From NCBI GenBank assembly GCA_029339505.1, contig JAQISU010000251.1:584001-648000 (forward strand): a DNA stretch of 64,000 bases. Reading direction: 5' to 3'. A program made the position numbers and the translations under genes. Every line of letters begins with the position of its first letter. Positions within the stretch are counted from its first letter, which is position 1. The notes beneath the pieces were generated by a model. The model was given only the letters and a program-made list of their open reading frames with translations, was not told where the DNA came from and made no database searches. Of the stretch, positions 19,327-62,860 are shown piece by piece. The stretch comes from Unio delphinus. Lineage: Eukaryota > Mollusca > Bivalvia > Unionida > Unionidae.

Positions 19327-19327
19327 T

Positions 19328-25779: not shown

Positions 25780-25780
25780 T

Positions 25781-27550: not shown

Positions 27551-30500
27551 TCATGCCCTACTCAAGTAGTCTGCGCCTATATTTTCAACTCCCCTTATTG
27601 CTTCTACACGGAAACGATAAGGTTGTAGTGTTAGCGCCCAACGCATCAACCGAGCGTTAGCGACCTTGGCCTTGTTTAAATACAGTAGGGGTTGGTGATC
27701 AGTCTCAAGAACGAAATCTCTCCCAAATAGATATGCGTGATACTTCCCAATTCCCCATACTACGGCCAAACATTCCTTTTCTATAACGGAATAATTTTTC
27801 TCCCTGGGTAGCAATTTTCTACTCGAGTAAGCTACGGGTAACTTACTGTCGTCCTGCTCTTGCAGTAAAACTGCCCCCAACCCAGTTTCAGAAGCGTCTG
27901 TTCTTAGAATAAAAGGTTTGCTGACATCTGGCAATTTCAATATAGGTGCACTAACCAGTTTCTCTTTCAGAGTACAAAATGCTTTATCTTGTGGCGGTCC
28001 CCATTCAATTTTGTTTGGTTGCCCCTTTTTGGTCAAATCAGACAGCGGGCTAGCAATGGCTGCAAAGTTCGGTATAAACTTTCTGTAAAAACCTACTAGA
28101 CCTAGAAATGATCTTACCTGCGTTTTGTTGGTTGGCTTCGGTGCGTCTCTAATTGCTTCAATTTGCTTGGGATGAGGTTTTAACTGACCCATACCGCTGA
28201 CCCTATGACCCAAACAATCTAAATCTGTATAACCAATACTGCATTTAGTGGGTCTCACTGTAAGGTTCGCTTTGCGGAGTCTATTGAAGAGCTCGCTCAG
28301 GACGGACACGTGCTCACTCAGAGTATTCGTGTACACGAATATGTCGTCTACAAAGCTATCAACGTTTGTTAAACCTTTAAGCAATTTACGCATCAAACGA
28401 CAACAGGTGGCGCTGGCTCCAACTAACCCGAATGGCATCACTTTGAATTGATACAGTCCTTTCTGGGTTGCAAATGCTGTCAATGGTCGGGATCCTGGGA
28501 CAATGGGAACCTGCCAATATCCCTTGGCCAGATCTAATTTGGAAATCCATCGGTTTCCCGACAACTTCGCAAATAGACCCTCCATATCTGGCATTGGTTC
28601 TGCATCGAACACAGTGATTTTATTTAACTGCCGAAAATCAATGCAGAATCGGTTCGTCCCGTCCATTTTCCTGACAAGCACTACTGGAGAAGAATATGGC
28701 GAGTTGGAGGGTTCAATCACCCCCAGATCCAACATTTTACCCACCTCTTCGTCCACAGCTTCACGTGCGTTGTATGGCACTGGATAGCCCTTGATTCGAA
28801 TAGGGTCAGACGTATTCAGCTTAATTTTGAGGTCCAACAAAGTTGTACAACCTGGTCTGTCAGTGAATACATAAGAATGTTTAGCCAAGAGCGCATTAAT
28901 CTGTTGACGCTGGTCTTTCGTCAACTCCGCACTCACATCGACTTTATCTATCCCCTCCCCCGCAACTCCCAAGGGACATTCAAGGGAACTCTCTATATTC
29001 GAATCAGCTTCATCATCGTCTACGACTGCCGTACAAACGACATTTAAGACCCCCTTTCCAACATTGTCGCTCTGTCTCTTAATATACAACTTGAGCATAT
29101 TCGCATGGAATGTTTTTACATTACCGTCCATGTCAATTTTATAGTCCATGTCACCTTTTACTTCTTTAACTTCATATGGACCTTTCCACTGGACTAATAA
29201 CTTATTCGAACTCGTTGGAAGAAGCAATAGCACCTGATCTCCCACAAGAAATTTCCTATTACGCGCTCTGCGGTTGTAATACTTGGCATATCTGCGCCCG
29301 GATTTAATCAATTCGTCACGTGCCATCTGGCATGTACTCTCAAGTTTATTTCTTAGATCTAACACGTACTGGTAAGTCGTTTTTATTTCCTCGTTCGCGA
29401 CATCACCAGTCCATAGTTCGCGTAGTATCCGCATCGGGCCTCGAACTGTCCTACCGTACAACAGTTCGAAGGGTGAAAACCCTAAACTTTCCTGCGGTAC
29501 TTCACGATACGCGAACAGAACAGCGTTTAAATAACGGTCCCAGTCTTGCGGACGTTCCGCGCACATCTTTCGTAGCATGCTTTTCAGGGTACCATTAAAC
29601 TTTTCTACCAGTCCATTGCACATCGGATGGTATGGGGTAGTGTTTAGCTGTTTGATGGATAACAGCCTACTTATTTCACCCATGAGGTCAGAGGTGAATT
29701 GGGCACCACAATCAGTGAGGATTTCCTCTGGCACCCCTACCCTACTGAAGATATCAACTAATGCTTCAGCTACCCTTTCCGTTTCAATAGTTGGTAACGC
29801 TACGGCTTCGGGGTATCTGGTTGCGTAATCAACCAGAGTAAGTATGTACCGATTCTTTCTTTCGGTAACCGGGTGTATTGGTCCTACAATATCTACTGCC
29901 ACTCTTTTAAACGGTGTATCTATTAATGGCATTTGTCCTAAGGGCACCCTTGTGACCCTTCCCTTACAAACGGTTTTCTGACATACGTCGCACGACCTAC
30001 AGAACCGTGTGACATCGCCATTAACACCGGGCCAGTAGAATTCAGCGACTACCCTGCTAGTGGTCTTAGCCTTACCTAGGTGTCCTGCCATGCTTGACTC
30101 ATGCGCCACCCTAAGTACTTGAGATCTATATCTCTGGGGTACGACCACTTGCCAATACTTCTTACCCTCCCGAGCGCTAAACTCCCTATGAATTAATCCG
30201 TTCTTGCGTACGAATCTAGAGCTACCCCCACGCTTGCAATGTTTAATAGCGCCGGACGTGATTTTCTCAACAATTGTTCTGATGGACTCATCACGTTCTT
30301 GCTCTTGTTTGAAATCATCACGGGAAATTCCTGAGATCGATTCAGGGACTATTAATTTATGAAACGCGGATTTCTCTCGCCGTGTTTGCGCTCGCGTTTC
30401 GACTGCCTGAGCCAAAGGTATTTTAAAGTCGGCCATAGTTGGAAGACGGGAACCTTCAACATTACCGATCGTCAGATCGTAAATAGGATTGTCCATACAA

Positions 30501-42309: not shown

Positions 42310-42585
42310 CACTATAGGGTCTATGGAAAACCCAGTCAAAAACAGCTTGGGGCACTATAGGGTCAAGATTTATGGGGTCAATGGAAAATCCAGTCAAAAA
42401 CAGCTTGGGGCACTATAGGGTCAAAACAGCTTGGGGCACTATAGGGTCAAGGGAAATGGAACAGGGTGGGCCTATATAGCGTCAAGGGAAATGGAACAGG
42501 GTGGGCCTATATAGCGTCAAGGGAAATGGAACAGGGTGGGCCTATATAGCGTCAAGGGAAATGGAACAGGGTGGGTTTATATAGG
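42310..42585 (+). repeat. two adjoining minisatellites
   Basis: First, diverged copies of CAGCTTGGGGCACTATAGGG (42340-42450). Then four copies of a 35-bp unit starting GTCAAGGGAAATGGAACAGG at 42446, 42481, 42516 and 42551. They lie just 3' of the histone-type stem-loop of the next gene. Confidence 0.93.
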
Positions 42586-42621
42586 GACAAGGGAAAAAAA
42601 GGGCGGCAAAGAAAGCTACTA

Positions 42622-42657
42622 TCTTTTCGAGACCTATGAGTGGCCCTGAAAAGGGCC
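42622..42657 (-). terminator. histone-type 3' stem-loop plus HDE, gene A
   Basis: On the minus strand GGCCCT-TTTC-AGGGCC (42642-42657) exactly fits the histone mRNA stem-loop pattern (six-bp stem, UUUC loop). It is preceded by CCAAA and followed by ACTCA, and about 14 nt later by GAAAAGA (42622-42628), matching the U7-binding purine-rich downstream element. It lies 20 nt after the stop of the coiled-coil gene. Confidence 0.75.
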
Positions 42658-42677
42658 TTTGGATACTTCTTCTTCTT

Positions 42678-43253
42678 TTATTTTCTGTCGTTGTTCCACC
42701 ACTTTTTAAGTTTACCAATGATTCCCGTTTTCTTCTTCTTCTTTTCGTCCTCGGGAATCCAGTCAGGATGTCCCATAGCTCGAAACTTTTCCTGAACTCT
42801 CATCCATCTTAGATTGAGTAGATCAAAGTCCTCTTTCTTCTTTTTGTTCTTTTTTTCCTTTCTCTCCTTAGACCAGTTTTCTTTAATCTGGATCACCTGT
42901 TCTTCCATCACCATTCTCATCATTGCTTCTGCTTTCTTTAGCCTGTCTAGACCCCACTGCACATATTCCCACTCTATGAGATGTAATGTTTCTTCTAGAA
43001 AGCACCTGACTTTGATGACATGATCAAGTGCCTGCTTCAAATCCCCTATTCTTATATATTTTCTTTTAATACGTCTTCTTAATTTCTGGTCTTCCTCCTC
43101 TATCATACCTTCTAATAGATCTCTTGCTAATTTCAGTTGGCTTACAAAGCCATGGTTACTTTGAAATTCTTCCTCAAGTCTTTCCACTTCATATTCTGCA
43201 TCAAGGATCCCAAACCAGCTGTCTCGGAGTTGGATAAACAATTCAAAATTCAT
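42678..43253 (-). CDS. coiled-coil protein A with histone-like gene signals
   Basis: 191 codons from the ATG at 43253 (MNFELFIQLRDSW); an in-frame ATG at 43334 would sit upstream of the TATA box and is unlikely. The protein is almost all helix: an acidic coiled coil (residues 15-70), a second helix bundle (75-125), then a KER/KKKK-rich hinge and a basic tail ending KKWWNNDRK. No known domain is recognised. The motif MEEQVIQIKENWSKE resembles MEAIVEQTKIEKEEE and IEELFREEIQKEKEEW in the genes at 43754 and 53071, suggesting one paralogous family. A TATA/initiator module lies upstream and a histone-type stem-loop downstream. Function is unknown. Confidence 0.6.
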   Translation of the reverse strand: MNFELFIQLRDSWFGILDAEYEVERLEEEFQSNHGFVSQLKLARDLLEGMIEEEDQKLRRRIKRKYIRIGDLKQALDHVIKVRCFLEETLHLIEWEYVQWGLDRLKKAEAMMRMVMEEQVIQIKENWSKERKEKKNKKKKEDFDLLNLRWMRVQEKFRAMGHPDWIPEDEKKKKKTGIIGKLKKWWNNDRK

Positions 43254-43283
43254 CTTGATGTGTTCAAAATTGAATGGCTCAAA

Positions 43284-43345
43284 GGACTGACGATTGCGTA
43301 TATATATCTTAAGCACGGACGTGAAAGTAAACACCCCCTACATTC
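43284..43345 (-). promoter_or_regulatory. histone-like promoter module A
   Basis: On the minus strand: GGGGTGTTTACTTTCACGTC, then CGTGC, TATATATA (about 43298-43307) and TCAGTC (initiator-like, about 43284-43289), about 31 nt before the ATG at 43253. It is a diverged copy of the modules at 52693 and 53465. Confidence 0.6.
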
Positions 43346-43369
43346 ACTTTTCATATTATATACTATCCA

Positions 43370-43625
43370 CAAACCATATCATTTACTATCCCAAATCACA
43401 CTATATACTATCCACACACACACACGGGGAAGCAGCCAAAACACACCCTATCATTTACTATCCCAAATCACACTATATACTATCCACACACACGGGGAAG
43501 CAGCCAAAACAAACCCTATTATTTACTATCCAAAATCACACCCTATACTAACCACACACACACGGGGAAGTAGCCAAAACAAACCCTATCATATACTATC
43601 CAAAATCACACCATATACCATCTAA
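43370..43625 (+). repeat. ~70-bp minisatellite (3.5 copies)
   Basis: The unit contains CACTATATACTATCCACAC, ACACGGGGAAGCAGCC and AAAACAAACCCTATCAT. It lies between coiled-coil genes A and B and is upstream of module A. Confidence 0.9.
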
Positions 43626-43689
43626 ATAGAGTCAGTGTTTATAATCACACTACTCCTCTCTCACACCCATTGGCAATTGACATAGTATT

Positions 43690-43726
43690 TCTTTTCTAAT
43701 TAATTTGGGTAGCCCTGAGAAGGGCT
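43690..43726 (-). terminator. histone-type 3' stem-loop plus HDE, gene B
   Basis: Minus strand AGCCCT-TCTC-AGGGCT (43711-43726), preceded by AAACA and followed by ACCCA (the canonical histone flank). The purine-rich GAAAAGA (43690-43696) follows 14 nt later. It begins 27 nt after the stop of gene B. Confidence 0.72.
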
Positions 43727-43753
43727 GTTTTTTAAACTTCAAAATACACCTGG

Positions 43754-44254
43754 TTAATGCTGGCATCTCCCAGGTCTAGCCCCACACACACATCTTCTAC
43801 TCCAATCATTCTCCCAATTCACTCTTGTGATTGGGAGAGCAGAGGGAGAATGAGTGGCTTCACTATCCCAGTCTTCACTTTGTGGGATAGTGAAAGTCTC
43901 TTCATTTCTTCCTCTATTCCGCAACCGTGGATGAGATTGTGGTTGTTGCGGTTGAGGCTGTGGTTGTTGCGGTTGAGACTGTGGTTGATGTGGTGGGGAC
44001 TGTCCCTGTAGTGGACGAACTGGTTCCGGTGGTGAAGGTGTCCTCACCACGGGCTTGACTTTACTAGTCTGTCTCATCATGCGGTGAGGCAAGATGGGAC
44101 TTTTCTTCTCCTCCTCTTCTTTCTTTTTTCTTTCCTCCTCTTCTTTTTCAATCTTAGTCTGTTCTACTATGGCCTCCATAGCCAGTTCGTCCAGGAGACG
44201 CCTAGCATTCTCCAAATGCATTTGAAGTTCTCTTAATTTCTGTACTCTATTCAT
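43754..44254 (-). CDS. coiled-coil protein B with histone-like 3' end
   Basis: 166 codons from ATG. Residues 1-50 form a coiled coil (RVQKLRELQMHLENARRLLD then an E/K-rich run), residues 70-125 are Pro/Gln-rich with QPQPQQPQ repeats, and the C-terminus has a CVCGARPGRCQH cysteine/histidine end. No enzyme motif is seen. The E/K helix aligns loosely with proteins A and C. The leader at 44255-44293 contains TCAGTCTGGCT on the minus strand, the same initiator-like sequence as in modules at 52693 and 53465, and a LINE is inserted exactly there. The native promoter is therefore displaced 7 kb to about 51.33 kb. Confidence 0.55.
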   Translation of the reverse strand: MNRVQKLRELQMHLENARRLLDELAMEAIVEQTKIEKEEEERKKKEEEEKKSPILPHRMMRQTSKVKPVVRTPSPPEPVRPLQGQSPPHQPQSQPQQPQPQPQQPQSHPRLRNRGRNEETFTIPQSEDWDSEATHSPSALPITRVNWENDWSRRCVCGARPGRCQH

Positions 44255-44282
44255 CTTTGGTGTTGATGCGTCAAAGATGGGT

Positions 44283-44293
44283 AGCCAGACTGA
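44283..44293. repeat. LINE target-site duplication, left copy
   Basis: AGCCAGACTGA here and at 51329-51339 flank the minus-strand LINE. The complement TCAGTCTGGCT is the initiator motif of the gene family. Confidence 0.7.
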
Positions 44294-44606
44294 TTGATTG
44301 ATTGATTAATTGGATTTAAGACGTTTTCGCCCATTGGGCATTTACGTCTGTTTAATGCCCCAAAAGGGCTAATTAATTGTTTCGGGGGACGGAATAGTGC
44401 CACGTCCCCACGCATTATTGCACAATGTTATGCTAATTAATTGATACCAGCCGTCGGAAGCAGAAGAGGCAAAGGCGGAACGAGACTGCATTGGAAGGAA
44501 GGTGATATACCCAATAATTTAATCCCCCGAATATAATTTAGTATAATTGTCGTCCGGCATTTAAAAATAAGTGGTTGGGTAGGGACAATTGGAATGGGGT
44601 GCAGTA

Positions 44607-47600
44607 TTAAATACTGTCAGACTTGTCTATTTCCCGGAGGAATAATAGGATCAGTTCTGCAGTTAGGTTGGGATTAGGGTTTGTGATACTAAGAAATGAT
44701 GGGTAGGTTGTGCTCGAGCCTATTTTAATAAGAGAGCTTGCAAGTTTATTTCTTGCTACTCTATATGCTGGGCACACATTAAAAACATGTGATAGATCTT
44801 CTAATTGATTGCAAGATTGGCAAGAAGTATTTCTTCCAGGGTTGGATTTACTGAATTTGCCCATACTTCCGGCTAGTAGAGTTTTTCCTGTTTTGATGCG
44901 ATTGAAGATTCTTTCGAGATGTGTATGTTTAATCTCTGCTCCAATAATATTCCTGGATACTTGGTTTTGTATAGAGTATAGTTTACGTCCTTTCTGGCTT
45001 GAATCCCATTGTTGTTGCCATTTTGACATGATTCTTTTGGTAATGACATTATATAATTATGTTACCGAGTACTCTATATATTCAATTTCCACGTTGTTGA
45101 GGCTATTTTTTGCAGCACGGTCAGCTTGATCGTTTCCAAACAGATCTATATGAGATGGGACCCACATAAATTCAATTGTTTGGTTAAAGTTAGCAAGATC
45201 ATTGACAGTTAGCCTAGTTAGCTTTTGATAGTTGCCACGCCCTTTTGAACATCCAGATTCAAGTGTTTTTAGGACACTTAAAGAATCACTGATGATGAGT
45301 GATTTGGGAAATTTATTAATTTTGATTAGATTCAGTGCCTCTAAGATAGCCCAAAATTCCATGGTGTAGATGGAACATTGGTCCGGGAGTCGCCTCCCTA
45401 TTGTTATATTTAACTCTGGAATGGTGACTGCTGCAGCTGTTCTATCTGGATCTGTTGATTTGGATCCATCAGTGTATAATTTGGTATAATCCTTGTAGTT
45501 GACTTCTAAGTTATTGAGAATTTTTGTTCTTATTTCGTTCGCCATTGATTCTTTAGGTCCAACTGTTGTGGCTTCAAAGTTAATGTTTATTGGTATGTTC
45601 ATCCAGGGAGTATTGTCCGGATAGGCGATTTGAACAGCTTGAAGGCTGTTAATGCTTAGTTCTTTGCTTAAGGTGTGAATCCTTTTCCCGGAAGGTTGGG
45701 ATGGTACTAACCTTTTGCTAAAGGCTTTGTTGCAATTTTTAATTGTTGTTCTGGTGGGGTGATTTGCGTTATGAGTTGAGATTCTGACCGTATATCTAAG
45801 AGTTAGCTCATCTCTTCTAAGTGATAATGGCATTTCTCCAGTGATGATTTGCAATTCTTCTTTTGAGGTGCTTCTCAAGGTACCTGTGCAAATCCTTAGT
45901 GCTGTAGTTTGTATTTGATCTAGTTTCCCCAAAAGACTTTGTTTAGCAGATGCGTATACTTGACATCCGTAGTCCAGTTTGGATCTAATTAGGGCCCTGT
46001 AGATCATCAGAAGAGTTTTTTGGTTAGATCCCCATTTTAATCCTTTGATATTTTTCATGAGGGAAATGTCTTTTTTGCATCTACGGATCAGATCTTGGAT
46101 GTGGTACTTCCATGTTAGGTATTGATCAAATGTCATACCCAGGAATTTGATTGTTGTTTTAAATTTAATTAACTCCCCTTGAATGTATAGCTTTGGTGCT
46201 TCTACTGTTTTCTTTTGATTTGGCGAAAAAATTATACCCCTTGTTTTGCCCTTTGAGAGTTTGAACCCCCATTTGTCAGCCCAAGTTCCAATTTTGTTGA
46301 GGCTGATTTGGAGGGTGTTGATGACTTTTTGACTTGTTGGATCACCATCTTTCCATAGACCGCTATCGTCTGCAAATTGCGAGAGGTCTAATTCTTTGGG
46401 ATCAACGTTGATTTCCAGATCATTAATCATAATGTTGAACAGCGTAGGGCTAATGACACTACCTTGAGGTGTGCCGTTTTCCAATAGGAATTCCTCAGAG
46501 AGTGTATCTCCTATTCTAACTCTGATGCGCCTATTAGACAGAAATTGTTTTATCCAGGCATGCATTTCACCATTTATACCGTAGTGGTTAAGTTTGGCTA
46601 TAAGGCCATTTATCCAAACCAAGTCGAATGCCTTTTCAAGGTCTAGAAAAATTGCGGTCAAGTGTCGATTTGTTTTCCTTTTATTGTGAATTCCTTTTTT
46701 CATGGATTTAATTTTATTCCAAATTTGTTTGGAATTGGACTGTTTGATTATTAAAGTGGAGCAGTAGTTTTGCCACGACGTCTCTTTAGATGTTTTGATG
46801 ATCTGCTTTGCTAATTTTTCCTTTTTTTTGTAGTCATCGAAGTCCGTTGACTTGCCAGTGTGCCTAAATCTGTTGAGGGCTTTCTTCTTATCCTTGATCG
46901 CCTTCTTGCAGTTGTCGTTCCACCAAGGTATGGGCTGTTTATTTGTAATTTTTGTTCCCGTGGAAGGAATGCTATTATTGGCTGCTTCTTTGATACACTG
47001 GATTATGTTGTTATTAAACTGGTCGATGTTGTCGTCTTGTAGATCATGTATTGTCTTTTTTTCCAGTAGGGTCCGGAATTTCGTCCAGTTTGCTTTGTTT
47101 AAAATCCATTTGGAAGTTTTTTTAATGGGATCGATTGGCTTTGACAAGTGTATGTCAATAACTATTGGGTAGTGGTCACTACCTAGTGTAGATTCTCTGT
47201 CTACTTCCCAGTTGGTGATTGCAGCCAATCTGGGCGTACAAATAGTAAGATCTAATGCAGACATGGAGCCATTTGTTGGTGATAGACGGGTTTTTGTTCC
47301 GTCGTTTAGTATGACAAGGTTTCTTCTGAGTGCCCATTGTTCAATCAATGAGCCTCGCTTGTCAGTATGATCACCGCCCCATGACTTATTGTGGGCGTTA
47401 AAATCTCCACAAATCATGTATTCTTTTATGCAGCTGTTTAACTGCAAATAGTTTTGTAAGAGCGCTGGAGCTGCTCCACCAGGGTCATACACGTTAAGAA
47501 GTTCAAATGAAAAAGAACCAACGTGTATATGTACTGCTTGCTGTAGAATTATCTTGTTTTTGGCTAGTGTTAGTACAAAAATAAGTATTGGGTAGTAAGT

Positions 47601-47847
47601 CACTAATAAATATTCCTAACCCACCTCCCTTTAATCCGCTAGCCCTTGTCAGGTATTTATATTTGGAATATCCCTTAATTTTTGGTTGGGATTTTGATGA
47701 ACTGTGGGTGTGGGTTTCCTGAATACAAATGATGTCAGGTTTTTTAGTGGAATTTTGAATTTTAATTAATAATTCAGGTTTATTTATGTTTAAACCCCTG
47801 CTATTCCATTGCCAGATAGTTAATTTATGTTTCCCTTGTTTGTCCAT
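44607..47847 (-). pseudogene. LINE ORF2: endonuclease-RT-RNase H
   Basis: The endonuclease starts at 47847 (TIWQWNSRGL, IICIQETH). A frameshift near 47550 (A5 run) moves to the main frame, which continues with ICGDFNAHNKSWG and the GSDHYPIVIDI end of the APE fold. RT retains FLDLEKAFDLVW, NGTPQGSVISP and QFADDSG. Between KGIHNKRK and TNRHLTAIFLD (about 46675) the usual 150 or so residues of RT fingers are missing in frame. RNase H shows YTDGSK, MEFWAILEAL, ISDSLSVL and WVPSHIDLFGNDQAD. An in-frame TAA at 45057-45059 cuts off a final 150-residue region with a CQSC..HVFNVC zinc-like motif ending at 44607. Confidence 0.85.
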
Positions 47848-47886
47848 TTAAATTATGATAATTATTACCTTATAGCTATTTCCTAT

Positions 47887-50690
47887 TTAAATATGCAAAT
47901 GTTTTTCAAGGAGATTATTTAGTAGTTTAAAGTACGGTACACTAGGTACCCCCTGGTAATTTGAGATTTGAACAATCCCTAACAAAAGATCACTAAGGTA
48001 TTGTAAAATTTTTATGTGGGGAAAGGAATCAATCCCGCTATTAATGTTAAAGTTTATATTGTTTATATTATTTATATCGCCCCCTTTGTTATTAACAGTA
48101 CTAGTTGATAAATCCTTAGTTTTTTGCACGTTAGGATTTGTAGTACTGGTTTCTCTATTTCTATTATTTGGAACAAAATTATTTATCTCCGACGAAGTCG
48201 GTTTATTTTGTTTTAGGTTTTTTGAGGGCATAGATGAGGGCTGGGGTAATAGTGGATTATTACCCTTTTGAGTTAGTTTTTTAGTTTTGGATAAAGCAGT
48301 GATGCTTGGTGCTGTAACATTTTGGAGGTCTTTAATGTTTGTTGTCTGAGGGTTTGCAGCAGTTTGTTTCTGTGCTACCTCAGAACTGGATTTTGCCAAC
48401 TTATACGGGATTTTTTCTCTATTCATTATGGAAACTATTGTCATTTCCTTAATGGTATAAGGACAATCTTCGGCCGTTGGTCCGTGGGGTCCTTTACAAT
48501 TGGGGCATTTGGGTCCATCATGTTTACAAGGATCACTGTGATTACCTCCACAGTTTCCACATCTTGGCTTGTTTCTACAACTAAAAGTGTATTTATTGCA
48601 AAATCTTGGTTTATTGATGTAGTCTTCTAGTAGATAATTGGTTCCATAAAAATAAACAAGTATTGGAGCTATTGTGTAAAATTCCAGCAATATTTTCCTT
48701 GATATATGATCCTTTGTAGATCGAAGTCTGGTAACTTGTTTGAGGTCAGATCCCTGTAGTGTAAGCTCCTGCCCAATTTCTTCATCTGTCAAATGGAGAT
48801 ACCTCTTTGGAAGCTCAAACACTTTTTGATATCCTTTGGAATACATTTTGTTGTTTGGTTCCAATATGGAATTAGTAACCAAAGTGGTTTTATTTTCCTT
48901 ATGTATGATTACTTGAGGTCCTTTGTTGCCATTTTTTTCCACTCCAGGTGGTGGTAATTCAACGGAGGTATGTTTCTTAGGAGTAGTTTTGTTAGTGGAA
49001 GCTGTACTTTTGATATTATTGGTTACCGTCTTATGTCTGGATACTTGAATTTTCATTGTTCCAATTGTTTCCATTTCCATATATTTGGCAACTTGTGACA
49101 ATGTGCTGCAGTGCACTATGATATAATTTGTTCGTGGCCTTATTATTTCGAACGTTCCGCTATGTTTTTGTGTTAGTGCTGCAGCTATACTTTTTCCACT
49201 GAGATTGAAGGTTTTTGAGTTACCGCTTGTAATGAATACGGTATGTTCAGGGCTGTGGTACTTGGTACCTGCTGTCTTCTGATAGGCTGGAACTTTCGTT
49301 GTTTGATTTGTGACTTTTGTTTCTGGACCTTTCTTATTGTCACTTTTTGTATGTGGTGGTTTTTTAGTGTTTTTTGCTTTAGGTATGCCATTCTTTGGGG
49401 TTTTCCCTTTGCTCTTAACACTTGAGGGCGATGTTGATGCTTTTCTTCTGTGCTTGGATGGTTTTTGTTTGTCAGTATTTGTTGAGAGCATTTTGATGTG
49501 TTCTTCAGTATCTAGGTCCTCATCCATTGTTAATATTAAGTCTTCAATGGTGATTTCCTTTGAGGGTCCCGATGGTCCCGATGGTTGGCTATTGTGATAA
49601 AATGTTTTTTTCCCCTTTGTTTCTGTAAGTGGGGCCAGTGTATTCAAAGGAGATGTTGATGTTTGAACTTGGGTTGTATTTGGAGAAATAATATGGTAAG
49701 TGAGTGGGTCAAAAAATGAGGGAGGAGTTGGAGGGGGCATTTGGGTTAGGGGGTCAAAGAGCAAGGGTGATAAGGGGGACAAGGGGGACATCTGGGTTTT
49801 AGTGGATGGGGTGGGGTTACATTTATTGAGGGGGGATGCGGGAGGGATTACGAGAAGGGATACAGGAAGGGTTACAGGGTGAATCGATAAGTTTTGAGTG
49901 AGGGGGATTGTACTGACTAGATTTTCATCATTTTCATCATTGTCAGTGTTAGGATTGGGAGTATTAGTTGCAACTAATTTTGAACCAGTTTCTTGGTTCC
50001 CAATTGTGTTGTTTACATGTTTGTTGCATTTATTCATGCAACGTACCATGGTGTTCAAGAGTCCTGGCGAGTAACACTCGTCGTCCTCATCCACGAGTAC
50101 AAGCTGAGTTCCTGTATCCATGTTACTGTTGGATGCAATGGGAGGATGTGATTTGGGGGTAAGTTTAATTCTACCAGTGCACTAGTACCACTGTTTGGTA
50201 ATTGTTTGTCAGTCACTATTCTCTTGTTTAATTCAGGAGGAGCCATGACCGTGGAAGGAGTGGTAAATGTTTTGATAATTGGGGATGTTTGGTTGCGATC
50301 CAATACTTCTGATTGAAGATTTTGGTTCGTTGGACTAACTTCTGGGATGTGAGATGGGATGTGAGATGTCACTTTTAAGTCTCTTGCAATTACATTTCTT
50401 GTTGTTATGCTAGGACTAAAGTAGCCCACAGCTTTTGCATATGTAATTGGTTTGTTAACCGGGGAGACGTTACCAATTATGTTACCACTCCCATTGTTGG
50501 GAAGAATAGGGGTAGTGGTAGTGTTTGGGCTGTTGTTGGTGGTAGTATTGGTAGGAATAGGGGTAGAGGTGGGAGTACCGTCTATTTCTTTGGCCATTTT
50601 GAAAAGTTTATTAACCTTTCTGGTCATATAGCGGTTAGTATTCATCTTGACCTTATTCATCTTGACCTTCGACCTTGTTTCGCGAGACAT
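47887..50690 (-). pseudogene. LINE ORF1 (Gag-like, three zinc knuckles), frameshifted
   Basis: The N-terminal frame starts at 50690 (MSRETRSKVKMN) and is Thr/Asn/Pro-rich. At about 50140 the sense moves to the frame of 50121-47887. The second part has long Pro/Ser/Thr-rich low-complexity stretches, an RNA-binding-like segment around FEIIRPRTNYIIVHC, then three CCHC-type knuckles (CGNCGGNHSDPC, CPNCKGPHGPTAEDC and the preceding Cys cluster, minus strand near 48470-48590). This is the nucleic-acid-binding protein of I/Jockey-type LINEs. Confidence 0.8.
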
Positions 50691-50697
50691 GGTGAAG

Positions 50698-51328
50698 TAA
50701 GTGAATATTGTTCACAATATTTATATACTACTGTAGATTGTAGATTGTTGGCGGTTAAATCTCTTTGGTACAACTCCTATTTGATATCAAGGCCCAATTC
50801 TTTCGAGCGGTGACTCAGTTGGCTTTATAGTCGCTGTACACGTATAAGTCATAAGTGAATATTGTTCACAATATTTATATACTACTATGCGAATAGTAAC
50901 AAGGTGTATTGTAGATTGTTGACGGTTAAATCTCTTTGGTACAACTCCTATTTGTTATCAAGGTCCAATTCTTTCAAGCGGTGACCCAGTTGGCTTTATA
51001 GTCGCTGTACACGTATACACGTCTTGACAGGAAGAATGCTTGCTATCGAATAAGTGAATATTGTTCACAATATTTATAACTACTATGCGAATAGTAACAA
51101 GGTGTAAACAATTATGTGGATAGCGGGCTGCTAATGAAGAACGTAAATTTGTATGATGTGTAGACAGTAGACAGTAGTCAGTAGATTGTAGATTGTTGGC
51201 GGTTAAATCTCTTTGGTACAACTCCTATTTGTTATCAAGGTCCAATTCTTTCGAGCGGTGACCCAGTTGGCTTATAGTCGCTGTACACGTATACACGTCT
51301 TGACAGGAAGAATGAGTGAGAGGAATGA
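50698..51328 (-). repeat. LINE 5' UTR, three tandem promoter-like monomers
   Basis: Units of unequal length start at about 50698, 50852 and 51052, each with the palindrome AATATTGTTCACAATATT and the block CGGTTAAATCTCTTTGGTAC. Repeated 5' UTR monomers are known from some LINEs, where they carry promoter activity; that role here is inference. Confidence 0.7.
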
Positions 51329-52470
51329 AGCCAGACTGACTGAATTGGGTGTTTTTGAGTTGCCACCGCCCACTAGGGGCATATGGGCAACTTTTATAGC
51401 TACCATATCGGTAGCCATTTAGGTGGGAGGGGATGTTACTCCCTCCCTTAGAAGTGCTTAATTGCACTATCAGTTAAGGCGTTCCCCTGAATTACTAAAA
51501 AGTAACTATCAGGGGAAATGAAAGCCTATATTGGGGGTGGGTAGGAATAGTACCTACACACACCCACCCCTATCATCCAATCAAGCTTGTAAGGTAGCGA
51601 GGGGAAATGTTTCCTCATTTCGCTAGTAATTTGGTGAGTCGGAAATGGCAAAGGTGGAAAAGGCCCAGGTCCAGGAGGGCGTTGACACAGCAGCACACAC
51701 CAGAGCACGCCAACAGCAAGACAGCACAGCAAAGGACGCAGCCCACACCTGAAAAACCAAGGTCTTACTAAAGGTCAAATTCAGTCCAGTTGTACTAATG
51801 GACAAATTAACATCCAATATTGTGTTAGCCACCTGTGCAATTATTCAAATATTTAAGTTGAAGAATTATTATTTAAAGTCCTATCATTCAAATAAAACTA
51901 GTACATAAGCGTACATATAATAAGTCCCTAACAATTTTGTAAAATTAAAATGTCTAAGCGACATATAATAGTGTAGTCAATGGTAGTTTGTTTAAGTTAT
52001 GAATTTTGCTGGAGGTACCAATATAAGTCATATTAGATTTTTAGGGCCACGGAAAGTTGTTCAAAAAGGGGTACTCGTAACCAAATGAGTCCCCTATTAT
52101 TCAGGCAATGAAAAGATAAATGGCAATATCTTTTCGTTGAAACTGCTTCATTCGAGTAGTCCGATGCTGGCGACACATCAGAAGACCGCTGTAATTGTGT
52201 CAAAAAGCTGGCTATCTAAGGTAGTATTTCGCTGACTTGGTGATATCATCCTACGGCAGCCTGTGGGTTACTCAATACTTTGATATCACCAGTCAGCGCG
52301 CCTCAGGTCCGCCACATTGTTTAGATTTCCATGGCTGGTTACAATGTGGTTCCAGTAGTTTGACGTAGGAGCAAGTCCACTTCAATGCCCGCCATTTTTC
52401 TTCACCACGTGGTTATAGTGGGCTACTCAGTTTCCATATATCTTTGACTTCTGCCGCTTGTTAAAGGGAC
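51329..52470. other. hairpin-array region (no gene)
   Basis: Seven consecutive hairpins in 51358-51625: AGTTGCC/GGCAACT, GCTACC/GGTAGC, GGGAGGG/CCCTCCC, AGTGC/GCACT, TTCCCCTGA/TCAGGGGAA with inner TTACT/AGTAA, GGGGTGG-GTAGG/CCTAC-CCACCCC, and TAGCGA/TCGCTA with inner GGAAA/TTTCC. Further strong hairpins are at 52110-52135 (GAAAAGATA/TATCTTTTC), 52230-52298 (about 18-bp arms, one bulge) and 52312-52349 (CCACATTGT/ACAATGTGG). TATAAAAG on the minus strand lies at about 51391-51398. A 35-codon + strand frame at 51646 is not convincing. The stretch could be a non-coding RNA region or a fold-back insertion. Confidence 0.6.
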
Positions 52471-52620
52471 TTATAAACTCGCCGAAATATTTCCTCTGTA
52501 TAGTCCACCGCCCCACATCATGATTTTTCTCTTCGTAGTGGTAGTGAGTTGATAACGTCTTGAACTGTCCTTAACTGTTAAGCCCAGGAAAATGTGCTTC
52601 CGCACCCGTCGTGACGTCAT
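52471..52620 (-). CDS. small basic ORF downstream of promoter module B
   Basis: 49 codons from ATG (MTSRRVRKHIFLGLTVKDSS...), the first ATG after the initiator-like motif at 52693-52703. It is basic and Thr/Arg-rich with no recognised domain. Support comes only from the strong promoter module B upstream. No histone-type stem-loop was found after it, unlike the three sibling genes, so module B may instead drive a non-coding RNA. Confidence 0.25.
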   Translation of the reverse strand: MTSRRVRKHIFLGLTVKDSSRRYQLTTTTKRKIMMWGGGLYRGNISASL

Positions 52621-52692
52621 CAGGTCGCCAGCTCCAGAAAAGCCGTCCTACTCGATCTGCAGTCTTTGCCTGAATGTGATGAATGATGTCGA

Positions 52693-52755
52693 AGCCAGAC
52701 TGACGAGTGATTCTTTATATATAGTTCAAGCGCGGACGTGATGGAAAACACCCCC
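52693..52755 (-). promoter_or_regulatory. histone-like promoter module B
   Basis: Minus strand, upstream to downstream: TTTTCCATCACGTCCGCG, CTTGAAC, TATATATAAAG (about 52713-52722), then TCAGTCTGGCTTC (about 52693-52703). A second copy of the upstream box alone lies at 52800-52824. It is nearly identical to module D at 53465-53526. Confidence 0.7.
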
Positions 52756-52799
52756 TAGATCCAAAAATCTTACAGTATCCCTATCATTACCAAAAACAC

Positions 52800-52824
52800 G
52801 CGGACGTGATGGAAAACACCCCTC
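52800..52824 (-). promoter_or_regulatory. extra copy of the upstream box (module C)
   Basis: TTTTCCATCACGTCCGCG on the minus strand, without its own TATA/initiator on the downstream side; it sits about 70 bp upstream of module B as a duplicated enhancer-like box. Confidence 0.6.
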
Positions 52825-52994
52825 ACTTTTATACTTGACTCATATTAATTATACATTGAACAAGTTATTTTGAAAAAATACGTTGTGCTTATAGACGCAC
52901 TTCAAAACAAAAGTAAAAAGAGACAGTGATTATAGACTCACTTCTAATTTTTTTCTAACTTCCTCACATACCATAAGCAAATTGAATGATTAAT

Positions 52995-53030
52995 TCTTTT
53001 CGAGAATATTGGGTAGCCCTGAAAAAGGCT
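52995..53030 (-). terminator. histone-type 3' stem-loop plus HDE, gene C
   Basis: Minus strand AGCCTT-TTTC-AGGGCT (53015-53030, one G-T pair), preceded by AAACA, followed by ACCCA and, 13 nt later, GAAAAGA (52995-53001). It starts 40 nt after the stop of gene C. Confidence 0.72.
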
Positions 53031-53070: not shown

Positions 53071-53433
53071 TTATCGTCTAAGATTGCGTCCTCGTTTGGC
53101 TACACGATAGGGTCTGCTTCTTCGGAAAGAGAAAGAGAACTCTTTCGTGTCCACACGACAGTCGACAAAACTTCTGTCTGGTTCCTGCTGCTGTTGTTGC
53201 TGTTGCTGCTGCTGCTGTTCTCTCTGCTCTCTCTGCTGCTTTTGAAGTCGATACTTCTCAGTCCATTCTTCTTTCTCTTTTTGAATTTCCTCTCTGAAGA
53301 GTTCTTCTATGAGGTCTTCCGTTACTTGTAGCATTCTCACATTCTCTATCTCTTCAGGCTTTGGCATCAGATTGTGTCTGATACGATGCAGAGTGACATA
53401 AGCTTCGTTCAGCTTAGCTAGTCTTGAGCACAT
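53071..53433 (-). CDS. coiled-coil protein C with histone-like gene signals
   Basis: 120 codons from the ATG at 53433 (MCSRLAKLNEAY), the first ATG after the initiator of module D; the longer frame to 53523 would run through the promoter. Residues 1-60 are helical, followed by IEELFREEIQKEKEEW, a QREQREQQQQ run (11 consecutive Gln, CAG/CAA mixed) and a basic serine/arginine-rich tail. No known domain. It shares helix pattern, promoter and 3' end type with genes A and B. It lies 300 nt from the second Polinton-like block, which suggests it is part of that element, but this is not proven. Confidence 0.6.
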   Translation of the reverse strand: MCSRLAKLNEAYVTLHRIRHNLMPKPEEIENVRMLQVTEDLIEELFREEIQKEKEEWTEKYRLQKQQREQREQQQQQQQQQQQEPDRSFVDCRVDTKEFSFSFRRSRPYRVAKRGRNLRR

Positions 53434-53464: not shown

Positions 53465-53526
53465 GCCAGACTGGAGACTACCCCTGCTTTATATGGTTCA
53501 AGCGCGGACGTGATGGAAAACACCCC
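53465..53526 (-). promoter_or_regulatory. histone-like promoter module D
   Basis: Minus strand: TTTTCCATCACGTCCGCG, CTTGAACC, ATATAAAG (about 53487-53494), then CCAGTCTGGCC (about 53465-53475), 32 nt before the ATG of gene C. It is the best match to module B. Confidence 0.7.
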
Positions 53527-53653: not shown

Positions 53654-53659
53654 TTTATT
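53654..53659 (-). terminator. AATAAA polyadenylation signal of element 2
   Basis: AATAAA on the minus strand, about 75 nt after the protease stop. The main block thus uses a conventional poly(A) signal, unlike genes A-C. Confidence 0.5.
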
Positions 53660-53734: not shown

Positions 53735-54292
53735 TTATCTTTGACATGGTTGACAACGTTGTGAATTAAATTGAGATTTCCACTGTTGGAAATCATTGGG
53801 CCATTGATGTACACTACGTTTCCTAGCTAAAGACAACAGATAGCCATAATGGTCACAAAACCATCGATCTACTTTGTCATCGTTTCGAGACGAATGACGA
53901 TCAAAATAAGTCACTAAATGTTCTAAAGAATATCCAAGACTGCGATGATGCAGATAATAGATACAATATTGTCCACACACCATAGAATCTGTGCTTTGTA
54001 ATTTCACATTATTGAATCGTGTCGTCTGGGCATTTCTTATCATAAAGTCAATGATATCATCTTCGAAAGGGGGTAATCCATACGAATCAAAATATTCCAC
54101 ACAGCCCTCTTGAGGAAAGAAGACAGCTACCCAGTGAGTTCCTGGAAGATGACTATCATCTGTGTTGATGACATAAGCTTGATTCTCTTGAGGTTTGCGA
54201 TGAGGTAGTTCATCTTTAGCACACACGACAGGATTCCAAGAAGCAGTGTACGAACTACGGTTCAAAAGATAATAAAGTTCCCAGGTATCCAT
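53735..54292 (-). CDS. adenain-like cysteine protease
   Basis: 185 codons, ATG start. Catalytic residues are readable: His53 (GTHWVAV), Asp69 (YFDSYG), Gln99 (KLQSTD) and Cys106 (MVCGQYC). The order and spacing fit the adenovirus-type maturation protease of Polintons, which trims capsid precursors inside the assembling particle. It is the last gene of the block, 37 nt after the stop of the upstream gene, and is followed by AATAAA. It is clearly diverged from the protease of element 1, supporting two lineages. Intact. Confidence 0.88.
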   Translation of the reverse strand: MDTWELYYLLNRSSYTASWNPVVCAKDELPHRKPQENQAYVINTDDSHLPGTHWVAVFFPQEGCVEYFDSYGLPPFEDDIIDFMIRNAQTTRFNNVKLQSTDSMVCGQYCIYYLHHRSLGYSLEHLVTYFDRHSSRNDDKVDRWFCDHYGYLLSLARKRSVHQWPNDFQQWKSQFNSQRCQPCQR

Positions 54293-54832: not shown

Positions 54833-56182
54833 CTAATAGTCTAGAATGACTTCTCTCAAACTGTTGATTTCTATGGTATTATCGAATTCGGCATACAGAA
54901 TGACATTCACCGTATGGTCAAGAGCTGGTGAAAACTGAAGTTCCACACGCAGTTGTCCAGATTTTATAGGGTGGAAATGTCCCTCGTCGCTGCCTTGGTC
55001 TGGAGTGAAATCAAAAGCCCACAAAGCGTAACCTCCTGCATAATCTTCGTAGGAAATACCGTGACTGGTGTTGGTTCCTAACTGTCCTCTGGCTTCGTGC
55101 AGCGACAAGTACGACCTCAAGTAATTCTTCGCGGCAAACTTGGGTTCGAAAGGTCGGGTACACAAAGTTTTGCCATCGCGACTGACTTCGATTTTGGTTA
55201 CTCCGCAGTGGTTAAACTCGAAAGGATTGATATTGTGGACACCGTTGAAGGCTGCATTGCTGACGATACCAATGAATAAACGTTTGGGTAACTGTCCTTG
55301 GAACAGATGATCTTCGATCTTAGATTGGAGTCCAGAGGCAATGGTGAAAGTTTTGACTTCCACGCGTCGTATCGGATACTTGGCTGTCGTTCTGCTCAAA
55401 GTGTGACTGATGTCATTTCCCACTTTAGGTAACACTTCCACACGACGCACGTATAACCTGGCTTCTTGGATGATGGTTTTGTATGTGTTGGCATCAGCCA
55501 TCAAATGGAAAGCAGCACTGCTACGATTCAGTCTCAAGCGAATATCTACTCCGTTCAGCAAATACTTCTCTTGAAACCACATGTCCAAATGCAAACGATC
55601 GAACATTTCTAAACTACGTCCTTGCTGAATTTTCTTTCGACGCTCGTTAAAACCTACATTGTGAGGATTGGCAGGAATGGCAGGATTGCTGCCCTCAGCA
55701 GCTGCTGCTGCTACGGACAAGGCTGTGATGTTAAACTTATCTGCGGTGTCAGGTTTCCATACCACACAAGCATCTAAATGAGTGTTCTTGGCTTCTTTTC
55801 CGTACGTCAAGAGATTTTCGAGGTACGCTCGGTAAGGGTAAGTATCCGTGCTACTGCTGATCAGTTTGTTATTCATGTACAAATCCACTTCGCTGAACAA
55901 AGAATGCATGAAATTGTTGACGGGAGCTACTTGGGCATCGGCTGCTGGATCGGTGTTGTCCGTTCTACTCACTTTCACTTTCAAATACAAGTAACTGTTG
56001 TTGAGATCGATGTAATCTTCGGGTTGTCCTTTGATTTCAAACTCGATGGGAGCTGAATCCGTCAAAGAGGAGACGGGATGAAATTCGACCCATTGGGCTT
56101 CTTGCATGGTCATCATCGTGGGTGGCATGGCAAAGAGATCTAGTTCCGACTTGGAACAGGCACAAGATTCTTGGTGCATCAT
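54833..56182 (-). CDS. F54H12.2-like major capsid protein candidate
   Basis: 449 codons from the ATG at 56182 (an ATG-ATG pair); upstream in-frame codons open with TTG and are unlikely. The N-terminus CACSKSELDLFAMPPTM and the segment SAPIEFEIKGQPEDYIDLNN with VNNFMHSLFSEVDLYMNNK (residues about 35-110) are hallmarks of the F54H12.2-like family common in animal genomes as Polinton relics. I interpret the family as the double-jelly-roll major capsid protein. A poly-Ala/Gly loop near residue 150 is low complexity. The frame is intact. It differs completely in motifs from the capsid protein of element 1. Confidence 0.75.
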   Translation of the reverse strand: MMHQESCACSKSELDLFAMPPTMMTMQEAQWVEFHPVSSLTDSAPIEFEIKGQPEDYIDLNNSYLYLKVKVSRTDNTDPAADAQVAPVNNFMHSLFSEVDLYMNNKLISSSTDTYPYRAYLENLLTYGKEAKNTHLDACVVWKPDTADKFNITALSVAAAAAEGSNPAIPANPHNVGFNERRKKIQQGRSLEMFDRLHLDMWFQEKYLLNGVDIRLRLNRSSAAFHLMADANTYKTIIQEARLYVRRVEVLPKVGNDISHTLSRTTAKYPIRRVEVKTFTIASGLQSKIEDHLFQGQLPKRLFIGIVSNAAFNGVHNINPFEFNHCGVTKIEVSRDGKTLCTRPFEPKFAAKNYLRSYLSLHEARGQLGTNTSHGISYEDYAGGYALWAFDFTPDQGSDEGHFHPIKSGQLRVELQFSPALDHTVNVILYAEFDNTIEINSLREVILDY

Positions 56183-56657: not shown

Positions 56658-57599
56658 TCAGTTGTTCGAGAATCGTTTTTGAAAATGGAGTTTCACTGTG
56701 ACTTTCCCTTTGGTAAATGGAATATTTTGTCCTAGTTCTCCTTTTATAGAAATGTTGACACTGTCGAAATACGACTTACTGACGGGTAAATAATGAGGAT
56801 GTACAAATTCACGGTGAACGTGATTGGTATTTCCACCTTCCTCTTTATCGGTAGTGTCAGAATCCACTTTGAAAGGAATGACACGCAGTAACGGTGCAGA
56901 GGTGTGTCCTACCACGTTGTACTCTGCCACATCGGAGTACACAAACATCAAGTTGAGACCTTGGTTCAATTCAATAGGGAATCGAAAATATTTGGCAAAA
57001 TCCGAGTTACTGGTTATGCCTGGTATTTGCTTTTTGTTCTTGAGCATCTCGACGTCTCCACCTAAAATATCAAACAATTCAGGACAAAAAGTAATGGCCA
57101 TCATTTTCTCCTCTGAAAATGTCATCATGAGTCGACGAGACACTGAATAGTACTCAATGGTCACACTTTTTGGGTTTTTTGAGTTTGCAAAGAACTCCAT
57201 GGCTTTACCAAACACAACATTTAACCTGGTTACAATCGTAGTCACTAAATGTTGACCACTAAAATAATAACCTGGAGGAATGACGAACTTATGAGTGGAC
57301 AGGGCTTTAGTTGGGGGTCCATCTGATTTCTTTTCGCCACCTTTACCTCGTGCGTCTAAGGCTTTTTGCAATTGCTCGTCAAACACTTCTACTGTAAAAG
57401 TGTTTTGATTTTCGACGATGTTTTTGATTTGTGTCGGGTGTATTATTTCCACTAAAGCTCCTTCCCAATGATCATCTTGATCCAAATGCATGGTTTGAGG
57501 TAATTTAGCCGTGTAACAGCACAATGTGTTGTTAGGAAACACCTCCATAGAACTGTCACTGGATAACGTTAAGTAAAATTGGTTAATAGTGTTGTTCAT
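56658..57599 (-). CDS. penton-like minor capsid protein
   Basis: 313 codons from the ATG at 57599, which overlaps the stop of the upstream gene as ATGA. The opening NTINQFYLTLSSDSSMEVFP, the DDHWEGALVEIIHP strand (residues 40-55) and the glycine turn VIPPGYYFSGQHL (about 105) are typical of the second, single-jelly-roll capsid protein of F54H12.2-type Polintons. The C-terminal KVTVKLHF strand also fits a jelly roll. It is expected at the icosahedral vertices. Intact. Name assigned by family memory and position. Confidence 0.65.
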   Translation of the reverse strand: MNNTINQFYLTLSSDSSMEVFPNNTLCCYTAKLPQTMHLDQDDHWEGALVEIIHPTQIKNIVENQNTFTVEVFDEQLQKALDARGKGGEKKSDGPPTKALSTHKFVIPPGYYFSGQHLVTTIVTRLNVVFGKAMEFFANSKNPKSVTIEYYSVSRRLMMTFSEEKMMAITFCPELFDILGGDVEMLKNKKQIPGITSNSDFAKYFRFPIELNQGLNLMFVYSDVAEYNVVGHTSAPLLRVIPFKVDSDTTDKEEGGNTNHVHREFVHPHYLPVSKSYFDSVNISIKGELGQNIPFTKGKVTVKLHFQKRFSNN

Positions 57600-58020: not shown

Positions 58021-59133
58021 TCACTTCTTTTTATAGTCGATGACTTGGGCAGCGTCAATCCAAGAATCAAAACTAGGAGGATATCCTTTCCAACGTACTT
58101 TGACTTCTTTGACACGACGTTTTCCTACTTTACGGGTTCTTCGTTCGAGAATGCTTTCAATGTCGTACACGTCGTCTTCTTTTTTGGTGACACGTTGTAA
58201 CTCAGGCAAGTAAAACGTTCCTCTTAATACTTCTCCGTTCATGTCTTCCAATTTATAGACGGCAGGATGACGGCCACGCACTCGTTCAGTAACACGAAAC
58301 AATTCGGTGGTCCAATTGGGTAAGTAACCTTTGTCGAAAGTGCGTTTGGTTTTACCAATGCGTACCCAATCTCCCGGGGTTAACACTTCTCCACCTTTCT
58401 TGGGGACAGCCCTCGTTCGGGACGTACCAAACAGACGCTCAAAAACAGTCACTTCGTTGTCGGGTGTCACCTCTTGTGGGGCACGTCCAATGCTTATATG
58501 GTAAGATTGATTGTAGGCTTGGACTAAGTGCGGTAAGACGTCGATGTACTTGAGGGTGTGTTGATGCGTAAAATATTTCCACATGCGTTCTTTCAAGGTA
58601 CGTTGAAAACGTTCCACGATACTGGCTTTGGTTTCAGGATTTTCGGTGGTGAAAAAATGAATGTCACGTTTCTTTAATTCTCGTTGGAAAGCTTGGTTTA
58701 GAAATTCGGTGCCTTTGTCGGTTTGCCATCGAAGAGGGTGACGACCACTTTGTTTCAACACCAGTTGCAAAGCTCGTACTAACTCTCCGCTCGATTTGGA
58801 TGTCAATGGTACGACCCAGGCAAATTTAGAAAAGACGTCGATGACACAAAACAAATATTTGTAGCCACGATTGTAGGTGGCTAAATGAGAGACATCGGCT
58901 AAATCGGCTTGCCATTGATGATCGATGCCTTCCACTTGAGTGCGACTTCTGTGAAATTTTCGTCGAATGGGTTTGTGTAAAGTGTACGTCGCTTGTTCTT
59001 GTAACCATCGTTGTACTGTAGGTAAACGGAGCTTTTTCAAGCGAGTTTTTGTAGCACGATACAATTTCTGAATGCCTCCGTAACCTGCAGGGTGAGCTGG
59101 ATCGTAATAAATGCTGGCTAAGACCTTCTACAT
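58021..59133 (-). pseudogene. DDE integrase with chromodomain; TAG at codon 2
   Basis: Retrovirus-like integrase of Polintons. From the ATG at 59133 the second codon is TAG (59128-59130), after which 23 codons of typical N-terminus (IYYDPAHPAGYGG) run in frame into the long open frame. Numbered from that ATG, the catalytic triad is Asp77 (WQADLAD), Asp139 (WQTDKGTEF) and Glu174 (SIVERFQRT), the last two exactly 35 apart (D35E). An SH3-like region (PGDWVRIGK) and a C-terminal chromodomain (YDIESILERR..VRWKGYPPSFDSW) follow. It would insert the element's DNA. Apart from codon 2 the frame is intact; a TTG-initiated shorter product would lack the N-terminal 23 residues. Confidence 0.85.
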
Positions 59134-62035: not shown

Positions 62036-62767
62036 TTATGTCGACGAGGAGGACGTGTACACGACAGGTCCTCCGTCTTGACACCAGTCGTGAAACAAAT
62101 CGGTACGAAATCGCAAATAATCAGGGGTAGTGGGTTTTAAATCCACGAGTAAATAGGCGTGTGGCGTTTGAGTGGCATCATCGTACGCATGAGTTAGCCA
62201 AGGTGTTCCTAACTGTTTGGCTAAAACTTGCACTTGTGATTTATCTCGAGGACTTTTAAACAAGACCACGTAATGAGCATTAAGACTAATGGTACGATGG
62301 GCTTTACTTTGTTGAAATAAATTTTGTGTAATGTAAACGACACTGGCATTACGATGATGCCCTTTACGCGTAAACCATAGTTTAATTTCTTCTTCGTCTT
62401 CTCCTAACATGTCGTCAAAAATAACCCAATGAGTTTGACTAGGGTCAGACACGATCCCTTCGTCTTCTTTAGGAATGCCTGCTACAAACACAATGGAATC
62501 ACCTTGACTTTCTTGCAAGAGGCTGTATGCCGATTGCCACTCTTTGTAACACCACACGATGCGTTGAGGTGGACGATCGATCAAATGATGTTTATGTTCG
62601 ATCAAACGTTTGACAAATTCGGTTTTGCCTGAACCGCTCGGTCCAGCAATTAACATGTTAAAAGGATGACGAAGATACAAGGCTTTCCAACTAGCATAAT
62701 CTAAGTGTTCGTCAATGACTTTGAATGTGGAGGAGGAAGGAGTAGTAGAAAGAGTAGAGTGAGCCAT
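62036..62767 (-). CDS. A32/FtsK-HerA-type genome packaging ATPase
   Basis: 243 codons from the ATG at 62767 (MAHSTLST). Walker A GPSGSGKT is at residues 42-49; Walker B HWVIFDDML at about 113-121 with the Asp-Asp pair; a sensor-like VVYITQNLF follows (about 140). This is the packaging ATPase found in nearly all Polintons and related dsDNA viruses, which pumps DNA into the capsid. The length is normal and the frame intact. TATAAAAA (62819-62826) lies about 52 nt upstream of the ATG, giving a short leader. An alternative in-frame ATG at 62809 adds 14 residues. Confidence 0.9.
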   Translation of the reverse strand: MAHSTLSTTPSSSTFKVIDEHLDYASWKALYLRHPFNMLIAGPSGSGKTEFVKRLIEHKHHLIDRPPQRIVWCYKEWQSAYSLLQESQGDSIVFVAGIPKEDEGIVSDPSQTHWVIFDDMLGEDEEEIKLWFTRKGHHRNASVVYITQNLFQQSKAHRTISLNAHYVVLFKSPRDKSQVQVLAKQLGTPWLTHAYDDATQTPHAYLLVDLKPTTPDYLRFRTDLFHDWCQDGGPVVYTSSSST

Positions 62768-62860
62768 AGTCGTGTAGTGGTATGATACGATTGACACAAA
62801 AACAGACAAGACAAGAGGTTTTTATACTTTTTTTCAAGACACGTTTATTTCAATGCATGT

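Follow-up and report, generated by a model that had tools for sequence, protein, structure and literature searches.

Histone-type mRNA 3' end signals on three downstream genes of a multi-copy Polinton in the bivalve Unio delphinus

Whether a mobile DNA element can draw on the route by which animal cells end their histone messages is the question raised by a 64,000-nt stretch of the Unio delphinus genome (contig JAQISU010000251.1, positions 584,001 to 648,000; hereafter the window). To our knowledge, the histone-type 3' end of animals is nearly confined to replication-dependent histones. An original prediction, made from the letters of the window, held that three genes beside a Polinton, here called the cassette, each end in such a signal. 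All coordinates are positions in the window, and the cassette, its hairpins and the structural genes of the Polinton all lie on the minus strand.

Hairpins and purine elements at the ends of the cassette genes

53071..53433, minus strand: gene 1, open reading frame (ORF) of 120 amino acids, conserved ends around poly-Q
53015..53030, minus strand: histone-type stem-loop of gene 1, AGCCTT-TTTC-AGGGCT (one G-U pair), then ACCCA
52995..53001, minus strand: GAAAAGA of gene 1, 13 nt past the stem, resembling a histone downstream element
43754..44254, minus strand: gene 2, ORF of 166 amino acids
43711..43726, minus strand: histone-type stem-loop of gene 2, AGCCCT-TCTC-AGGGCT, then ACCCA
43690..43696, minus strand: GAAAAGA of gene 2, 14 nt past the stem
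42678..43253, minus strand: gene 3, ORF of 191 amino acids, predicted helical at low confidence
42642..42657, minus strand: histone-type stem-loop of gene 3, GGCCCT-TTTC-AGGGCC, then ACTCA
42622..42628, minus strand: GAAAAGA of gene 3, 13 nt past the stem, resembling a histone downstream element

Direct reading confirmed what had been predicted for all three ends: a metazoan-type hairpin with a 6-bp stem and a 4-nt loop lies 20 nt (gene 3), 27 nt (gene 2) or 40 nt (gene 1) past the stop, an ACCCA-like flank follows at the cleavage site (canonical ACCCA for genes 1 and 2) and GAAAAGA stands 13-14 nt downstream of each stem. The Rfam model Histone3 (RF00032) also matched all three stems, with 34.9 bits for gene 3 (E 1.1e-6), 31.5 bits for gene 2 (E 1.9e-5) and 27.9 bits for gene 1 (E 4.4e-4). 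The pattern GCYYTTHTCAGRGCYACYCA, which covers the three stems, matched the window at exactly these places as compared to a mean of 0.00 in 100 shuffles, and matched IMG/VR twice, each time on a contig carrying phage genes. A looser stem scan found four places (i.e. the gene stems and one at 2512) as compared to 0.28 per simulated window. Single-strand folding recovered the expected stem in every case, with z scores of -2.48 for gene 3, -2.74 for gene 2 and only -1.52 for gene 1.

Conservation of the stems was examined in the 2.5-Gb genome itself, where searches returned at least 150 copies each of genes 1 and 3, at least about 150 of gene 2 and at least 94 of the major capsid protein (MCP). 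Sixty cassette loci (L036-L095) were fetched, being the 30 best gene-3 and 30 best gene-1 protein matches with the window's three copies included; cassette genes present with their 3' end and 120 nt beyond were counted, and a stem was sought within 90 nt. A stem followed all 104 copies (30/30 for gene 3, 44/44 for gene 2 and 30/30 for gene 1), which represent 103 distinct places because L039 and L091 overlap and hold one gene-2 place twice. By the same search, no stem followed any of 24 protease or eight MCP copies in these loci. All six stem pairs were kept in 102/104 copies, and GAAAAG, a candidate U7-pairing element, lay 13-14 nt on in 103/104. The flank was ACCCA in all 74 rows of genes 1 and 2 and ACTCA in 28 of 30 rows of gene 3. 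The fetched loci contained 118 stem-like places in total; the 14 beyond the 104 assigned ones stood close to an unassigned gene or at, or close to, the edge of a locus, and their sequence was that of the gene-1 3' end in 13 cases and of the gene-2 3' end in one. Orthologous loci lacking the stem had been named as grounds for abandoning the original prediction, which came through this comparison within one genome unharmed.

Compensatory changes, proposed as a further check, were found as well. The paired form GGCTCT/AGAGCC occurred at 10 places as compared to 0 in a reversed control; the pattern used had itself specified that form, and the places were judged by the sequence that follows, gene-3-like in at least eight. 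A T-A to A-T exchange was present in the gene-2 stem of L007, and pair 1 is G-C in gene 3 as against A-T in genes 1 and 2. Thirty other loci (L006-L035) were the best by Histone3 score; 22 follow a copy of the gene-3 family and eight gave no match. Because these loci were taken by hairpin score, their gene-3 stems are no test of conservation. Eight of them also have a gene 2 that has diverged (identity 50-94% across the matched pieces), and its stem was present in 8/8, with six pairs in four, five in three and, by eye, four in L025; GAAAAGA was kept in seven of the eight. In L029 and L030 the diverged gene 1 gives way to foreign sequence ahead of its stop, which puts its 3' end outside the comparison.

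The core-histone genes of the host are arranged in tandem units of 6.8-6.9 kb on contig C15 and other contigs, and Histone3 matches on C15 are spaced by the same 6817 bases. One host histone end consists of GGCCCT-TTTA-AGGGCC, ACACAATTTATCCC and, 14 nt on, GAAAAAGA, which occupies the place matching the GAAAAGA of the cassette genes (one end could be read far enough). A second (i.e. GGCCCT-TTTT-AGGGCC, ACACA) follows the core-histone gene C15:4057-4434, presumably H3 by its last residues, in a stretch that stops before the downstream element. At another place (L096, G000:C338), a U7-like stretch, TCTTTTCAAATTTGTCTAG, scored 18.3 bits with the Rfam U7 model and has a weak 3' hairpin; we take its spacing to be that of human U7.

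Cassette ends share with replication-dependent histone mRNAs the 6-bp/4-nt stem-loop, a G-C second pair, a U-rich loop, the ACCCA-like flank, the purine element 13-14 nt on, a short 3' untranslated region and an uninterrupted ORF. They differ in that the signal, known here from sequence, sits on non-histone genes of a mobile element, and in that two of the three stems open with A-U, unlike usual histone stems with their G-C opening pair.

A Pfam search gave no histone match for the three proteins, upholding the view that they are not histones; for gene 3 a helical structure is predicted at low confidence (AlphaFold mean predicted local distance difference test score 60). The best solved-structure relative of gene 3, a stretch of a cilia protein at E 0.011, was not convincing. 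The gene 3 family has no detectable kinship to the gene 1 or gene 2 proteins, the comparison being of gene 3 with each of the two. Gene 1 has 12 homologues at E<=0.1, seven aligned sequences showing conserved ends that flank the poly-Q, and gene 3 has five (54-96% identity), all from short contigs (at most 628-1103 nt). Ratios of non-synonymous to synonymous substitution (dN/dS) for gene 3, taken against copies in the 22 loci chosen by Histone3 score, were 0.14-0.56 in 24 of 27 rows with a finite value; as the copies are in part disrupted and dS frequently approaches saturation, this only indicates that the protein has long been under selection.

The Polinton and its shared cassette promoter

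Comparison was made with three contigs (L001-L003) filed in symbiont metagenome-assembled genomes (Escarpia and Bathymodiolus hosts; L001 under a tubeworm endosymbiont), where the Polinton sequence is apparently host contamination.

62036..62767, minus strand: A32-like packaging ATPase (Pfam 7.1e-7)
58021..58584, minus strand: C-terminal half of an integrase with chromodomain (Pfam Chromo 4.3e-8; matches L001 integrase residues 187-358)
56658..57599, minus strand: minor capsid-like protein (30% identity to L001 7947-8741), presumably penton-like
54833..56182, minus strand: MCP (search for MCP relatives; comparison with L001)
53735..54292, minus strand: adenovirus-type protease (weak Pfam match, E 0.022; 36-41% identity to L001 and L003 proteins)
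53654..53659, minus strand: AATAAA past the protease stop at the end of the structural block, a candidate poly(A) signal
53505..53526, minus strand: promoter motif GGGGTGTTTTCCATCACGTCCG of gene 1, then TATAAAG and CCAGTCTGGC
52801..52822, minus strand: extra copy of the promoter motif ahead of gene 2
52733..52754, minus strand: promoter motif of gene 2, followed by TATATAAAG and TCAGTCTGGC; a long interspersed nuclear element (LINE) now separates it from the gene
43316..43337, minus strand: promoter motif of gene 3 (three mismatches), then TATATATA and TCAGTC
42677..42682, minus strand: AATAAA overlapping the gene 3 stop, a possible poly(A) signal

The element has the double-jelly-roll MCP, minor capsid-like protein, protease (by a weak Pfam match) and A32-like ATPase of Polintons and adintoviruses, together with a retrovirus-like integrase with chromodomain, of which just the C-terminal half lies within one ORF. 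A protein-primed PolB and terminal inverted repeats would be expected past position 64000. Because that ORF covers just residues 187-358 of the L001 integrase, the integrase of this copy is probably broken. The gene set and the order of the structural genes, which is that of L001, are shared with animal Polintons/Mavericks and adintoviruses; this element differs in adding a downstream three-gene cassette with histone-type 3' ends, a signal not found in L001-L003. Animal-named sequences among the 120 MCP relatives listed were mostly from bivalves (Mercenaria, Crassostrea, Ostrea and Saccostrea), with one sea cucumber. Two scans of IMG/VR for MCP relatives yielded none that was confirmed.

The original prediction had placed the three genes next to a Polinton. 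The association held, and the relation proved closer than adjacency: with the order MCP, protease, cassette, these are by sequence the downstream genes of the Polinton itself. Copies across the genome have the order MCP, gene 1, gene 2, gene 3. Of the 94 MCPs listed, 37 had a listed cassette gene on their own strand no more than 25 kb downstream and one had such a gene in another order or strand, and 24 complete protease 3' ends were located within the 60 cassette loci.

The cassette genes use one promoter type, judged by the motif they have in common. Allowing up to three mismatches, GGGGTGTTTTCCATCACGTCCG occurs four times in the window as compared to 0 expected, with one copy ahead of gene 1, two ahead of gene 2 and one ahead of gene 3; TATA and CAGTC lie downstream. 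Its core, TCACGTCCG, stands ahead of 27/30 gene-3 and 21/30 gene-1 copies and within 150 nt of 33/44 gene-2 rows, and among the 22 gene-3 loci taken by Histone3 score, 9 contain the motif (up to six mismatches). On the minus strand from the protease stop to 62843, the only AATAAA is the one after the protease, the next being at 62844-62849; an ATTAAA lies 48 nt past the gene at 56264 and 185 nt past MCP. No minus-strand AATAAA lies between a cassette gene and its stem, in contrast to the AATAAA that ends the structural block.

Proposed processing of the cassette messages

In histone messages, SLBP is described as binding the stem and U7 as pairing with the downstream element (PMC5636114; PMC7026596). 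Each cassette gene would be transcribed from its own promoter into a short, apparently intronless mRNA, whose hairpin would be bound by SLBP and whose GAAAAGA would pair with the U7 small nuclear ribonucleoprotein; cleavage would then occur just past ACCCA or ACTCA, with no poly(A) added. Processing by host SLBP/U7 is the simplest reading and a likely one; with equal likelihood, the three genes are accessory ones that a multi-copy Polinton carries at its downstream end, and their short messages are ended in this way. The benefit, put forward more tentatively, would be that the cassette proteins are made in S phase, a time at which SLBP is plentiful and replication is open to the element. Of the original claim that the element borrows the histone route, the part concerning histone-type signals on Polinton genes is strongly supported, because the stems are conserved across copies, show paired changes, resemble host histone ends and are absent from the structural genes; cleavage at the stems without poly(A) we infer from known biology, and coupling of expression to S phase more weakly so. 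The chances are about even that the three genes form an expression class, with one promoter type, SLBP/U7 ends and activity in S phase, while the neighbouring structural block, which closes with AATAAA, ends in ordinary poly(A) fashion; the host cell cycle would then supply the element with an early/late switch.

Several observations weigh against processing by SLBP/U7. Two of the three window stems (genes 2 and 1) score below the Rfam gathering score of 34, which gene 3 alone passes, and an AATAAA overlaps the gene 3 stop. The lack of AATAAA elsewhere says little by itself, because it is likewise missing within 400 nt of the ends of some further genes of the element. The host U7 was not established: the Rfam U7 model gave no match at E<=0.001 among the 65 of 695,180 candidates scored (and none in the control), and a U7 pattern matched six places in the genome as compared to four in the control; three of the six were read, and two of these scored 18.3 and 17.7 bits, where the gathering score is 34. 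The copies counted were best protein matches and so are biased to recent ones, those of L006-L035 having been taken by hairpin score, and in seven of the eight diverged gene-2 copies the flank is AACCA or ACCAA, not ACCCA. Lastly, L001-L003 gave no Histone3 match at E<=1, L001 and L003 ending shortly past the protease, so that the claim is made for this genome.

The alternative that survives best accepts the histone route and assigns it a gain other than S-phase timing, such as messages that are short and stable and dispense with splicing and poly(A), or evasion of the silencing directed at polyadenylated transcripts. The sequence carries no sign of timing, in keeping with this proposal. In animal cells, however, messages that depend on SLBP are linked to S phase, and timing would follow unless SLBP were always present in the cells used; we regard a gain of this other kind as possible, on balance doubtful. 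It is improbable that the hairpins are conserved RNA elements with another role (stability, translation or termination) on messages polyadenylated as usual: the AATAAA at the gene 3 stop would suit such messages, but stem, loop, flank and purine element jointly fit the histone arrangement and the host histone ends, and neither AATAAA nor ATTAAA occurs in the 400 nt past the stops of genes 1 and 2. For a host gene group, or a separate mobile unit beside or inside the Polinton, it could be said that among the matches listed most cassette copies are untied to an MCP (37 of the 94 MCPs have a listed cassette gene downstream) and that the sequence covered takes in no ends of the element; the same strand and order in all 37, with one deviating MCP, and the 24 protease 3' ends inside cassette loci make this very unlikely. 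Chance inverted repeats can be dismissed almost entirely, for a 6-bp stem alone is common but the pattern controls, the 104/104 copies and the paired changes are not so explained.

Viral genomes are known to draw on the histone system in another way, and a bracovirus carries a histone H4 gene. 'Histoid' genes occur in some adomaviruses (PMC11071296). Such viruses encode a histone-like protein, whereas this element shares the mRNA 3' signal only. A passage search of the adintovirus survey (PMC11071296) turned up neither 'stem-loop' nor 'polyadenyl', and titles and opening lines of abstracts in the open-licence literature yielded no report of histone-type 3' ends on Polintons, DNA viruses or transposable elements. 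If SLBP/U7 processing holds, the cassette would be an example from nature, in many copies, of selfish DNA that uses this machinery; it would point to a way in which such elements match the timing of their genes to the replication of host DNA, and would offer a new test system for hairpin requirements; its transcripts would be missed by poly(A)-selected RNA-seq.

LINE insertions and neighbouring sequence

44294..52693, minus strand: LINE sequence (endonuclease, reverse transcriptase, RNase H), 8.4 kb, bounded by TCAGTCTGGC at 52694, 51330 and 44284

This block, apparently two successive insertions at one site, sits at the start site of gene 2 and splits the cassette of the window copy. Genes 1 and 2 are for this reason 8.8 kb apart in the window; the spacing from gene 1 start to gene 3 start in other copies has a minimum of 1.8 kb and a median of 2.0 kb (47 pairs found). 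In loci L036-L095, foreign sequence adjoins the CAGTCTGGC start site in 9/30 copies of gene 1 and 11/44 rows (10/43 places) of gene 2, and the gene 3 start in 2/30 copies. It ends in LINE-like tails, i.e. (AATC)n, (ATTC)n, (TATC)n or A-runs, and the window junctions at 44284-44293, 51330-51339 and 52694-52703 are of the same kind. From these junctions, it looks as if there are LINE lineages that insert preferentially where these Polinton genes start.

Tandem repeats of 35 bases, at 42400-42600, immediately follow gene 3 and are perhaps part of the terminal region of the element. A weak twister-P1 ribozyme match was seen at L002 11734-11798 (28.9 bits as compared to a gathering score of 67.2). 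Elsewhere in the window, three tandem 6453-base units occupy 14645-32020 and carry a Gypsy-type polyprotein; its integrase lies ahead of the reverse transcriptase (unit at 27551), an arrangement that we take to be that of Gmr1-like elements.

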